NCBI GenBank assembly: GCA_015654695.1
Contig: JAATGJ010000127.1
Coordinates: 1-64,000 of the forward strand
Source: Chitinophagales bacterium
GTDB taxonomy: Bacteria > Bacteroidota > Bacteroidia > Chitinophagales > Chitinophagaceae
Direction: 5' to 3'
DNA: 64,000 bases
In this document: in pieces, positions 49,375-54,273 of the stretch
Position numbering within the stretch: position 1 is the stretch's first letter
Layout: the number at the start of each line of letters is the position of its first letter
The notes under the pieces: model-generated
Databases searched by the model: none
Seen by the model: only the letters and a program-made list of their open reading frames with translations
Told to the model about the DNA's origin: nothing
Program-made: the position numbers and the translations under genes

Positions 49375-49704
49375 TTACTGGTTAAATAAACTGATCAGTT
49401 GCAGGGATTGCAGTTCCGTATCTGCCGATTCCAGCAATGATACAAATTCCGCCAGTTCCGTAATACTTAGTAATAACTGTATGCCCTGGCACGGGGCTGG
49501 TATCATGATGCAGCGGACGGTTGGATTTTGCCGTTCAGGCTGCTCATCCTTTATTTTCTTTATCCAGAAATGGAATGCATCATAATCTTCGTGGGTAAAC
49601 GTCATCACCAGGTTGCTGTAAGCCACCTGTATTTTTTCACAATCTGCGCAGCGGATGACATAACCTGTTGTATGGTGGTGAGATAAGGTCTGGTATTGGC
49701 ACAT
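49375..49704 (-). CDS. DUF6686-like small protein, paralogue 2
   Basis: A 109-residue relative of the 45298-45615 protein. It opens MCQYQTLSHHHTTGYVIRCADCEKIQVAYSN with Cys2 and a CxxC pair (Cys19, Cys22), plus three adjacent histidines that the paralogue lacks. The centre CIMIPAPCQGIQLLLS and tail LLESADTELQSLQLISLF match paralogue 1. A small metal-binding or metal-sensing protein is possible but not shown. Promoter motif site b lies 67-98 bp upstream, which ties it to the iron-locus group. Confidence 0.72.
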   Translation of the reverse strand: MCQYQTLSHHHTTGYVIRCADCEKIQVAYSNLVMTFTHEDYDAFHFWIKKIKDEQPERQNPTVRCIMIPAPCQGIQLLLSITELAEFVSLLESADTELQSLQLISLFNQ

Positions 49705-49770
49705 GGATTTTTATTTATGCAAAAATCAACCGGTAGTTATTACTATTGTTACGATTTCAGAAACGCTTAC

Positions 49771-49802
49771 TTGCGCAAAAAGGAAACTGACAAAAGGCTG
49801 AC
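49771..49802 (-). promoter_or_regulatory. Iron-locus promoter motif, site b (DUF6686 paralogue 2)
   Basis: TTGCGCAAAAAGGAAA joined to CTGAC (49787-49791), six bases, then CTGAC (49798-49802). It differs from site c only by a GC for AC in the first module. Confidence 0.7.
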
Positions 49803-49930
49803 GAAGGGTTGTCCCGCTCTTAAACCTTTTATGTAATGCATTTTAAAAAAACTATCCACAGTCTGTGAAGAAGAAGGTTAACGATTTGTTCATTTTGCTG
49901 TTACATTCGTCGTCAGTTCTTATTAATAAT

Positions 49931-50116
49931 CGTTGCGGTGCCGGCGAAACCATTTCCATCTTTTCGCTGGCTTAATAGGGAACCGTGTGTAAATCACGGG
50001 CTGACGGGCAACTGTAAGTAACATTAACGTTTTATCAAACCTCGATTCCATTGTCCCACCAGGCGGGCCGAGAAGGACAGGTAAAGCGGTTACAAGCCAG
50101 GAGACCTGCCGACAAC
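49931..50116 (+). ncRNA. Cobalamin (adenosylcobalamin-type) riboswitch
   Basis: The leader contains the conserved cobalamin aptamer parts in order: GGTGCCGG (49937-49944), the GGCTTAATAGGGAA block (49969-49982), GCTGACGGGCAACTGTAAGT near 50000, GGCGGGCCGAGAAGG (50062-50076) and the B12 box AAGCCAGGAGACCTGCC (50094-50110). B12 binding normally turns the downstream genes off. About 130 bp of expression platform follows, up to the nrdB start; no clear terminator with a T-run is seen there, so control of translation is more likely. The 539-bp gap 49705-50243 otherwise holds only promoter motif site b. Confidence 0.93.
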
Positions 50117-50243
50117 ATTTATTGTTTAGAACCTTCCCGGATAAGGCGCTGACAAAAGATTGATCTCTTACAACTTCCCAAAAAAAGTTACTGGATTTCC
50201 TGTCTCTTGTCGTGCCACATTAGTAATGTGTAAATAACCTGTT

Positions 50244-51215
50244 ATGGAAAAGGAGACTGAATTATTACTGAAAGAGAATAAAGACCGCTTTGTTATCCTG
50301 CCGATTAATTATCCCAGGGTTTGGGAACAATATAAAAAGCATGAAGCCAGTTTCTGGACGGCGGAAGAAATTGACCTGAGCGGCGACATGAAAGACTGGA
50401 ATGCTCTCAATGATGGTGAGCGTCATTTCATTTCACATATACTCGCTTTTTTTGCAGCCAGTGATGGTATTGTGAATGAGAACCTGGCCGTGAACTTTAT
50501 GAGCGAGGTACAACTCCCGGAAGCCCGTTGTTTCTATGGTTTCCAGATCATGATGGAAAATATCCATTCTGAAACTTATGCCCTGTTGATTGACACGTAT
50601 ATCAAAGATCCAAAAGAAAAAGACCGGTTGTTTCATGCAATTGACACAGTGCCAGCTGTCCGCAAGAAAGCTGAATGGGCTTTGCGCTGGATAGATAACG
50701 GATCTTTCGCAGAACGCCTTGTGGCTTTCGCCGCAGTAGAAGGTATTTTCTTCAGCGGCAGCTTCTGTTCTATATTCTGGATGAAAAAAAGAGGGTTGAT
50801 GCCGGGTCTCACCTTCAGCAATGAACTGATCAGCCGTGATGAGGGCCTGCATTGTGAGTTTGCTTGTTTGTTATACAGCATGTTGCAAAACAAACTGACT
50901 GAAAAGGAAGTGCATGGTATCATTGGTGACGCGGTGACTATTGAAAAAGAATTTATAACGGATGCATTGCCGGTTGCCCTGATAGGTATGAACGCCAAAC
51001 TCATGCAGCAATACATTGAGTTTGTCGCCGACAGGTGGCTGAGTGAATTAGGCTATTCTAAAATTTACAACAGCACTAACCCATTTGATTTTATGGAACT
51101 GATCTCGCTGCAGGGAAAAACAAATTTCTTTGAGAAACGGGTGGGTGAATACCAGAAATCAGGCGTGATGAATGAAGCAGGATCAAAAGCCTTTTCGATG
51201 GACGAAGATTTTTAA
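50244..51215 (+). CDS. nrdB: Ribonucleotide reductase class I, beta (radical) subunit
   Basis: A 323-residue di-iron subunit holding the radical for deoxynucleotide synthesis. It resembles the eukaryotic-like class Ia R2. Iron ligands lie in FWTAEEIDL (Asp44), MMENIHSE (Glu105, His108), [11 protein letters not shown] and RDEGLHCEF. The radical tyrosine is Tyr112 in [11 protein letters not shown], so a standard tyrosyl radical is expected. It lies directly behind the cobalamin riboswitch and ahead of nrdA, with a heptamer repeat between the two. Confidence 0.96.
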
Positions 51216-51317: not shown

Positions 51318-53672
51318 ATGCAGGTACTGAAACGTAACGGCAAAGCAGAAGCCGTACACTTCGACAAGATCACATCAAGAGTAATGAAACTAAGCTATGG
51401 TCTTAGCTTAAAACAGGACGACATTATCGAGATCGCCAAAAAAGTGATCGCCGGTATTTATAATAATGTAACCACAACGGAACTGGATAACCTGGCGGCG
51501 GAAACAGCGGCGTCATTTACAACGAAACATCCTGACTTTGCAGTGCTGGCTGCCAGGATAGCTGTTTCAAACTTACACAAGAACACCACTAAATCTTTTT
51601 CTTATACCGCCGGTTTATTATACAATTATATTGACCAAAAGACAGGAGATAAAGCGCCGTTGATCGCTGATGATGTTTTTGCTGTTATACAAGAACACCA
51701 GGACAGGCTGAATGCGGCGATCATTTATGAAAGGGATTATCACTTTGATTTCTTTGGTTTTAAAACACTGGAAAAATCTTACCTGCTGAAAGTGCATGGT
51801 AAAATAGTGGAACGTCCGCAGCATCTATTCATGCGGGTAGCGCTGGGTATCCACAAAACTGATATTGACGCCGCTATTGAAACGTATAATTTAATGAGTG
51901 AAAAATGGTTCATTCATGCTACGCCTACCTTATTCAATGCCGGCACATCCAAGCCGCAAATGAGCAGTTGCTTTTTATTAAGTATGAAAGATGACAGCAT
52001 CTTAGGCATTTATGATACATTAAAGAACTGTGCATTGATCTCCCAATCTGCCGGTGGCATTGGTTTGAACATTCATAATATACGGGCTACAGGGAGTTAT
52101 ATCAAAGGAACAAATGGCACCAGTAATGGCATCATACCCATGCTGCGCGTATTCAATGATACCGCCCGCTATGTGGACCAGGGGGGTGGCAAACGTAAAG
52201 GCGCTTTTTCTGTTTATCTCGAACCATGGCATGCTGATGTGTTTGAATTCCTGGACCTGAGAAAAAATCATGGTAAAGAAGAAATGAGGGCGAGGGACCT
52301 GTTCTTAGCCCTCTGGGTTTGTGACCTGTTTATGAAACGTGTGGAAGCTGATGGACAATGGAGTTTATTCTGTCCTAATGAAGCGAAGAACCTGCATACT
52401 ACGCATGGCGCAGAGTTTGAAGAATTATACGAACGTTATGAAAAAGAAGGAAGAGCTAAAAAAACAATTCCCGCCCGTGACCTGTGGAATGCGATACTTG
52501 AAGCGCAGATAGAAACCGGCACTCCTTATATGTTGTATAAAGATGCGGCCAATACAAAATCAAACCAGCAGAACCTGGGTACGATACGCTGCAGTAACCT
52601 CTGCACGGAGATCATTGAATACAGTGATGATAAAGAAACAGCGGTGTGTAACCTCGCCTCCTTATCACTGCCCCGTTTTGTAGAAGGAAAGAAATTCAAC
52701 TTTGATAAATTACTGGAAGTAACAAAGATCATTACGGTTAACCTGAACAAGATCATTGATAATAACTACTACCCGCTGGAAGAAACAAAGCGCAGTAACA
52801 TGCGTCATCGCCCGATCGGTATCGGCGTGCAGGGTTTAGCTGATGTCTTTATGCTGTTAGGTCTGCCATTTGAAAGCGATATGGCAAAGCTGCTTAACAA
52901 GAACATCTTTGAAACCATCTACTTCGCTGCCATGAGCGCTTCAAAAGACCTGGCGAAAAAAGATGGCGCTTATGAGACTTTTGCCGGCTCTCCTTTATCA
53001 AAAGGCCTTTTCCAGTTTGACCTGTGGAATGTACAACCCACGGAACGCTATGACTGGGAGGCATTGAGAACAGAAGTAAAAGAGCATGGTGTCCGTAATT
53101 CATTGTTATTAGCGCCCATGCCTACGGCCTCTACCTCACAAATATTAGGCAATAATGAATGTTTTGAACCTTATACTTCTAATATCTACAACCGTCGCGT
53201 ACTAAGCGGTGAGTTTGTTGTTGTCAATAAACACTTACTGAAAGACCTCGTCAATCTTGGCTTGTGGAATGACAGTATGAAACAACGCATCATTGCCGCT
53301 AACGGATCTGTACAGAACATAGAAGAGATATCTCCTGAATTAAAAGAGATATACAAAACAGTCTGGGAAATAAAACAACGTAATGTCATTGACATGGCCG
53401 CTGACCGTGGGGCATTTATTTGCCAGTCGCAATCACTGAACTTATTTGTAGAGCAACCCAATTTCGCTAAACTGAGTTCCATGCATTTCTATACCTGGAA
53501 AAAAGGATTAAAGACCGGTATGTATTATTTACGGACAAAAGCGGCGAGTGATGCCGTGAAGTTCACTATTGATTCAGACATGATGAAACAAACAGCGCTT
53601 GAAAAAACACAGGCCGAGCAAATATCCTGTTCATTGGATAATCCCGGAGGCTGCGAAAGCTGCAGCGCATAA
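51318..53672 (+). CDS. nrdA: Ribonucleotide reductase class I, alpha (catalytic) subunit
   Basis: A 784-residue catalytic subunit. An ATP-cone regulatory domain ([20 protein letters not shown], from residue 3) is followed by the barrel with [20 protein letters not shown] (active-site Cys), [10 protein letters not shown] and [15 protein letters not shown]. The C-terminal CESCSA gives the redox-active CxxC pair that is re-reduced by thioredoxin. It is in an operon with nrdB under B12 control and is followed by a strong hairpin terminator. Confidence 0.97.
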
Positions 53673-53741: not shown

Positions 53742-53766
53742 ATGTTACCTTGTAAAAAAAATTATC

Positions 53767-54273
53767 ATGGTATCAAAACCAATACAGGAAGCGCTGAACA
53801 AACAGGTGCAAATGGAAGCCGAGTCTTCACAGGCATACCTCGCTATGGCCTCATGGGCCGAGATACAACCCGGACTGGAAGGAGTTTCGAATTTCTTTTT
53901 CCAGCAATCGGATGAAGAAAGGGTACACATGCTGAAACTATTACGTTTTATCAATGAAAGGGGCGGCTTCGCTGTTGTGCCCGAACTGCAGCAACCTATG
54001 CTGACATTTCCCTCTCTGAAAAAATTGTTTGAAGAATTCCTGAAACATGAACTGAAAGTAAGCGACAGCATCAATGATCTTGTTCATCTTTCGCTGACGG
54101 AAAAAGATTATGCCACGCATAATTTTCTGCAATGGTACGTGAATGAACAGATAGAAGAGGAAAGAACAGCCCGTACCCTGAACGATAAGCTGGAACTGAT
54201 CGGCGATGATAAGAGCGGCCTGTATTTATTTGACCGGGATATTATGAATTTCCGGGGGCCGGGAAAGAAATAA
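53767..54273 (+). CDS. Ferritin (non-heme, FtnA type)
   Basis: A 168-residue iron-storage protein. Ferroxidase-site residues are in MEAESSQAYLAMASW (about 16-30), DEERVHMLKL (Glu and His near 50-53) and the later EQIEEE. No methionine heme-ligand pattern of bacterioferritin is seen. The ATG at 53767 follows a short A-rich leader; an upstream in-frame ATG would add 14 residues from the terminator region and is rejected. It neighbours nrdAB, whose product needs iron, and the ChaN-like gene 27 bp downstream. Confidence 0.95.
   Translation: MVSKPIQEALNKQVQMEAESSQAYLAMASWAEIQPGLEGVSNFFFQQSDEERVHMLKLLRFINERGGFAVVPELQQPMLTFPSLKKLFEEFLKHELKVSDSINDLVHLSLTEKDYATHNFLQWYVNEQIEEERTARTLNDKLELIGDDKSGLYLFDRDIMNFRGPGKK

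Follow-up and report, generated by a model that had tools for sequence, protein, structure and literature searches.

A cobalamin riboswitch with an uncommon kissing-loop code before the class I ribonucleotide reductase genes of a Chitinophagales bacterium, and its association with nrdJ

B12-independent ribonucleotide reductases were reportedly among the targets of B12 riboswitches in early comparative work. The closest described system is the nrdABS operon of Streptomyces coelicolor, which has a cobalamin riboswitch and in which AdoCbl regulates transcription (Borovok et al. 2006, as described in PMC4991794). Isozymes of B12-dependent enzymes in general are presented as B12-riboswitch targets in PMC3766115; in the portion of that paper covered here the Bacteroidaceae are the sole group of the Bacteroidota, and the main text has 0 instances of "nrd". 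Regarding the switching step, the relevant passages of PMC10653944 describe a repressing corrinoid riboswitch that acts via L5-L13 pairing, with the 3′ side of P13 competing in an antiterminator. They give UCCCG as the L5 consensus, with all L5 bases highly conserved, and report that double mutants rescue L5-L13 in the P. megaterium metE riboswitch, and that two double mutants failed to rescue it in the A. halodurans cobT riboswitch. A search of the literature (titles, abstracts and some passages) returned no recognisable report of such a riboswitch before nrdAB in Bacteroidota. Class I reductases under B12 control are known from Streptomyces, and the locus described here is a well supported new example, in Bacteroidota and with an uncommon loop code.

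The window, that is, the whole stretch of 64,000 nucleotides that we analyzed, is part of contig C25 of a genome of 5.42 Mb (187 contigs, 98.84% complete). Scanning it with cmscan at gathering scores, RF00174 is the sole RNA family match, with 88.4 bits (gathering 31.5) and an E-value of 1.7e-20, and all model positions from 1 to 189 are matched. The covariance-model search thus bears out the first-pass annotation of this DNA, which had proposed a full B12 aptamer before nrdB-nrdA. The span given there, 49931-51215, covers nrdB, but it begins 12 nt inside the aptamer and omits nrdA, which ends at 53672. The locus consists of the following features.

49919-50127, + strand: cobalamin riboswitch aptamer (RF00174), peripheral arm included, from the covariance model
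50244-51215, + strand: nrdB, class I ribonucleotide reductase small subunit, 323 aa (PF00268, E 4.4e-118)
51318-53672, + strand: nrdA, class I ribonucleotide reductase large subunit, 784 aa (TIGR02506, 743.5 bits, cut-off 341)

All three are on the same strand, with a gap of 116 nt between aptamer and nrdB and of 102 nt between nrdB and nrdA, and NrdA has an ATP-cone at its N-terminus. A ferritin gene (53758-54273) lies directly 3′ of nrdA, also on the same strand. The ferritin as a conserved part of the nrdBA unit was considered and rejected: no match turns up in 75 loci from named records or in 46 nrdBA stretches from the same bacterial family, which reach only a short way past nrdA.

The first-pass reading was that B12 switches off the class I reductase when the B12-dependent class II enzyme, NrdJ, can take over. 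Our results support this reading, and the nrdJ gene that it predicts elsewhere in the genome is there, at C126:79333-81570, where a profile search of the genome gives a TIGR02504 score of 570.2 bits (cut-off 399.95). The frame is 1144 aa long and contains the class II N-terminal domain (PF08471, E 2.7e-35), the barrel, and TSCPD domains. The second TIGR02504 match in the genome is nrdA itself, at 324.7 bits and so under the cut-off. The 18 kb around nrdJ have no Rfam match at gathering score. The genome also encodes a PduO-type adenosyltransferase (183.1 bits, cut-off 108.45); searches of the genome for NrdD, NrdR and the aerobic cobaltochelatase CobN found none of them. The other RF00174 match of the genome (84.9 bits) stands upstream of a TonB receptor gene, which from this riboswitch context we call btuB-like. 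A link had also been drawn to a B12-dependent mutase subunit at 1.7 kb. Its PF02310 domain is confirmed, but the gene is 48 kb away, and all that it indicates is use of B12 by the cell.

To see how riboswitch and nrdJ are distributed, we use two samples. The family sample has 147 genomes, the window's own included, with NrdB counted at E-values up to 1e-20. NrdB is found in 47 of them, in 48 copies (G077 has two), and a TIGR02504 match above the cut-off in 129. Leaving out the window's copy, the riboswitch is upstream of 34 of the 47 remaining nrdB copies; a covariance model built here finds the same 34 leaders, plus one weak extra match (16.6 bits) in one of them. Counting per genome, with the window's own included and G077 once, the riboswitch is present before nrdB in 34 and absent in 13, and for these 13 there is no RF00174 match at E-values up to 5. 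In the NrdJ count, matches under the TIGR02504 cut-off (NrdA itself, for instance) are excluded, and 18 doubtful genomes were rechecked using the NrdJ of the window's genome as query; after this recheck G144, with an NrdJ fragment at a contig end, is scored as positive. The riboswitch precedes nrdB in 33 of the 39 genomes with both NrdB and NrdJ, versus 1 of the 8 with NrdB and no NrdJ (Fisher p 1.9e-4). Riboswitch presence thus tracks nrdJ across relatives, as would follow from the first-pass reading, though six two-enzyme genomes lack the riboswitch (G042, G026, G132, G060, G065 and G047). The one genome with a riboswitch and no NrdJ found, G033, is in 790 contigs and 90% complete. A separate observation concerns G086, of the window's genus, and L054: in the sister genome TIGR02504 has two matches above the cut-off and NrdB is absent, so the class I operon varies within the genus.

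The named set consists of 80 nrdB loci from named records, for which a riboswitch was looked for within about 500 nt upstream. It partly overlaps the family sample, with at least five shared genomes (L062, L069, L073, L097 and L131). A riboswitch is upstream of nrdB in 19 of the 80 loci, among them loci of Pseudoflavitalea, Flavihumibacter, Paraflavitalea, Paradesertivirga and Mucilaginibacter limnophilus; every Pedobacter nrdB locus in the set lacks one. Riboswitch, NrdB and NrdJ occur together in, for example, Flavihumibacter fluminis, Pseudoflavitalea rhizosphaerae, Paradesertivirga mongoliensis and M. limnophilus. For the 50 of the 80 loci that were tested, NrdJ is in 18 of the 19 riboswitch-bearing genomes versus 16 of the 31 riboswitch-free ones (p 0.0016), a count of 16 that includes L058, whose NrdJ is in pieces under the cut-off, and also G042 again. 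In the 2.6 Mb MAG of L064, the riboswitch is present and no NrdJ was found. Both samples therefore indicate that the riboswitch is nearly always accompanied by nrdJ, and that having both enzymes does not require a riboswitch.

Some observations concern the history of the operon and its surroundings. Against 39 family copies the window NrdB shows 81-88% identity, and against the seven of the G047 clade 73-76%. The window NrdA is 87% identical to that of G047 (support 100), 73-77% to the rest of the G047 clade and 69-76% to the other 39. L057 has the same pattern (NrdB 90%, NrdA 92% over 275 aa). Because the window NrdB and NrdA have different nearest kin, the operon looks, from these identities, like a mosaic of two lineages. 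In several genomes another cobalamin riboswitch lies about 3.5-6 kb from the nrdB start, in some on the opposite strand. The extra cobalamin riboswitches near nrdB are these.

L055, 6966-7152, - strand
L056, 1236-1422, + strand
L096, 7496-7692, + strand
L131, 7963-8148, + strand
L177, at G060:C23:70585-70789

Other riboswitches (L144, L150, L152, L154, L158, L161, L163 and L251) stand before related, secreted-looking proteins of about 320-360 aa, which at a guess may be putative B12-binding DUF4465 proteins.

We now turn to the kissing loop, for which the features in the window are as follows.

50005-50008, + strand: L5 kissing-loop core CGGG (usual CCCG), from the sequence and a comparison of 50 leaders
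50132-50146, + strand: P13 hairpin CCTT-CCCGGAT-AAGG, from the sequence and the leader comparison
50136-50139, + strand: L13 core CCCG, complementary to L5, from the sequence and the leader comparison

The 50 leaders are those of the window, the 34 and the 19, 54 in total, minus two exact duplicates and minus the unreadable L011 and L066. The mean complementarity of native L5-L13 pairs is 5.39, versus 3.99 when the loops are mispaired between leaders, and 0 of 20000 permutations reach a value as high, in a permutation that ignores kinship. Judging by the sequences, the complementarity seen in the window appears to be kept in most related leaders. Six matched L5:L13 codes occur among the 50 (CCCG:CGGG, CGGG:CCCG, UGCG:CGCA, CGCG:CGCG, CGUG:CACG, and GGCG:CGCU, which includes a G-U pair). 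In the 48 nrdB leaders left after excluding the same-genome twins L073 and L131, L5 is CCCG in 23 and another code in 25, namely CGGG (11), UGCG (5), CGCG, CAGG, GGCG and CGUG (2 each) and AGCG (1). The match is not universal: the two CAGG leaders have no matched L13, AGCG pairs at just three positions, and, among the leaders with the usual code, a run of four pairs with standard G-C pairing throughout is missing from L037 and from those whose L13 is CGGAGGA. On the NrdB tree, which is weakly supported (26 of 118 branches starred), usual and changed L5 codes require at least 8 changes.

Outside nrdB, the readable cobalamin riboswitches of the same bacterial family have L5 CCCG in 66 of 68 cases. 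The first 39 of these, all CCCG, come from the high-scoring end of the list and are biased in that respect. A second draw took 28 genomes without NrdB, picked for weak best scores, and gave 31 matches, of which 30 were read: L5 is CCCG in 27 (scored by script in 26 and by eye in L249), another code in two (L224, L251) and unreadable in one (L253). The changed code of L251 was read by eye, in a match below the family cut-off. The idea that loop recoding is strictly confined to nrdB leaders is rejected by L224 and L251. L224 (G014:C2:1547453-1547661, - strand), before a metE-like gene, has L5 CGCG with L13 CGCG.

The window L5 departs from UCCCG, but UCCCG is a consensus and not a requirement, and the partner loop is matched. 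That both loops are changed and yet match points to selection. We consider it somewhat likely that nrdB-guarding riboswitches in Bacteroidota repeatedly recoded both kissing loops in match, with the other cobalamin riboswitches of the family nearly always CCCG. The recoded nrdB leaders would then amount to a natural collection of compensatory mutants affecting the switching step, and, if the matched codes are functional, they could serve directly as natural variants in tests of how ligand binding is relayed to the expression platform. Riboswitch and nrdJ tend to be absent together, which is what we expect if the switch is kept only while a backup enzyme exists.

Downstream of the aptamer, leader pairing energies define a further feature.

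50145-50216, + strand: long alternative arm, in which the P13 3′ strand and what follows it pair with the strand ending at 50216

This arm and P13 share 50145-50146; therefore, the two structures compete. The arm ends 27 nt before the nrdB start codon. Over 50 leaders (here with L011 and L066 in, and the twins L073 and L131 out) the native arm strands pair at -17.64 kcal/mol versus -14.50 kcal/mol when mispaired, and 0 of 10000 permutations are as stable, in a permutation that again ignores kinship; in only 5 of the 50 does the native partner rank first among all. For the window, locking P13 comes at a cost of 6.0 kcal/mol; the mean cost over 51 leaders is 4.1 kcal/mol. A consensus fold of all 52 expression platforms gives no common structure (energy 0); for the 18-sequence usual-code class it gives P13 only (-3.25), and for the 10-sequence CGGG class a clear arm (-8.25). 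In the region between arm and start codon there is also a 15-nt palindrome, CACATTAGTAATGTG, at 50216-50230, which no other leader in a set of 52 contains, with an inverted repeat of at least 6 pairs there in just two others.

Regarding the output step, a consensus scan for intrinsic terminators finds 0 terminator-like sites at 49700-50400. Five T in a row occur nowhere in the window leader, and the T runs of its relatives are not at a common place. Locking P13 takes the mean accessibility of the start region from 0.56 to 0.54 (it drops in 22 of 51 leaders and rises in 8; Wilcoxon p 0.003), and leaves that of the window unchanged at 0.66. A model in which the released arm strand pairs with the start-codon region was rejected: over 50 leaders the native energy is -10.60 kcal/mol versus -10.63 mispaired, and 5146 of 10000 permutations are as low. 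Rho-dependent termination, or a translational effect via structure outside these predictions, may be the output step.

We propose the following mechanism. The nrdBA genes would share one transcript, headed by a riboswitch of the adenosylcobalamin type. As long as B12 is scarce, the empty aptamer would let the 3′ strand of P13 be taken into the long downstream arm, and the class I reductase, which is B12-independent and uses oxygen, would be made. When adenosylcobalamin, the presumed ligand, is bound, L5 (CGGG) would kiss L13 (CCCG), stabilising P13 at the expense of the arm, and nrdBA expression would fall, whether by transcription or translation; deoxynucleotides would then come from the B12-dependent NrdJ. 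That a riboswitch of this type represses nrdBA, with the class II enzyme then supplying deoxynucleotides, is in our view very likely, and the cell probably turns its class I reductase down when B12 is at hand.

Could the co-occurrence with nrdJ come from relatedness alone, and not from function? On a combined NrdB and NrdA tree (47 rows, without G142), which joins genes whose histories conflict in the window's case, 7 supported pairs differ in NrdJ; on average the riboswitch follows NrdJ in 4.5 of them and runs opposite to it in none, with median p 0.0625. The reverse test, with 9 pairs, has 5.1 going the same way and 0.4 opposite, also with median p 0.0625. These tree-aware pairs agree in direction with the counts, yet they are not significant, which is the point in favor of relatedness. 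Against it, the 7 genomes lacking both riboswitch and nrdJ are scattered on the tree (7 changes, at least 6 on supported branches), no pair that differs in NrdJ is contrary, and the second, partly overlapping sample agrees. Relatedness alone is an unlikely explanation.

The sign of the output is a different question. An activating corrinoid riboswitch that uses L5-L13, and P13 as antiterminator, exists (PMC10653944), and B12 could raise the class I reductase as in that A. halodurans cobT riboswitch, given that neither a terminator nor a clear masking of the start in the nrdB leader fixes the sign. But an ON switch offers no ready reason for the nrdJ association, there is no terminator found for P13 to prevent, and the conserved arm, in competing with P13, is laid out like the antiterminator in the repressing switch described in the same paper. 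We regard activation as very unlikely. It is likewise very unlikely, in our view, that this aptamer is a relic in decay that came down with the operon and no longer has a regulatory role. Five relatives do have nrdB aptamers at just 40-50 bits (L007, L012, L024, L026 and L045), and the loop pairs of L024 and L026 are mismatched; the window aptamer, however, is full length with its high score, and its L5-L13 is matched despite both loops being off the common code.

The proposed repression of nrdBA by B12 places this locus beside the described systems, as far as the sources describe them, in the following way. Like S. coelicolor nrdABS, it has a cobalamin riboswitch before a class Ia reductase operon and NrdJ in the same genome; unlike it, it is in another phylum, has the order nrdB-nrdA, and has the L5-L13 code CGGG:CCCG. 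With the repressing RF00174 riboswitch of P. megaterium metE it shares the aptamer, L5-L13, P13, and a 3′ side of P13 set against a downstream pairing, but its L5 CGGG with L13 CCCG departs from the UCCCG consensus of that type, and no intrinsic terminator was found here. Elsewhere in the bacterial family, the cobalamin riboswitches in front of TonB receptors, metE and other targets have the same aptamer family and the same P13 position; unlike them, with CCCG in 66 of 68 readable cases, the nrdB leaders carry a changed code in 25 of 48. The genome-wide nrdJ prediction held and the riboswitch distribution tracks nrdJ; with this locus, B12 control of a B12-independent reductase, known from Streptomyces, would reach into Bacteroidota as well.
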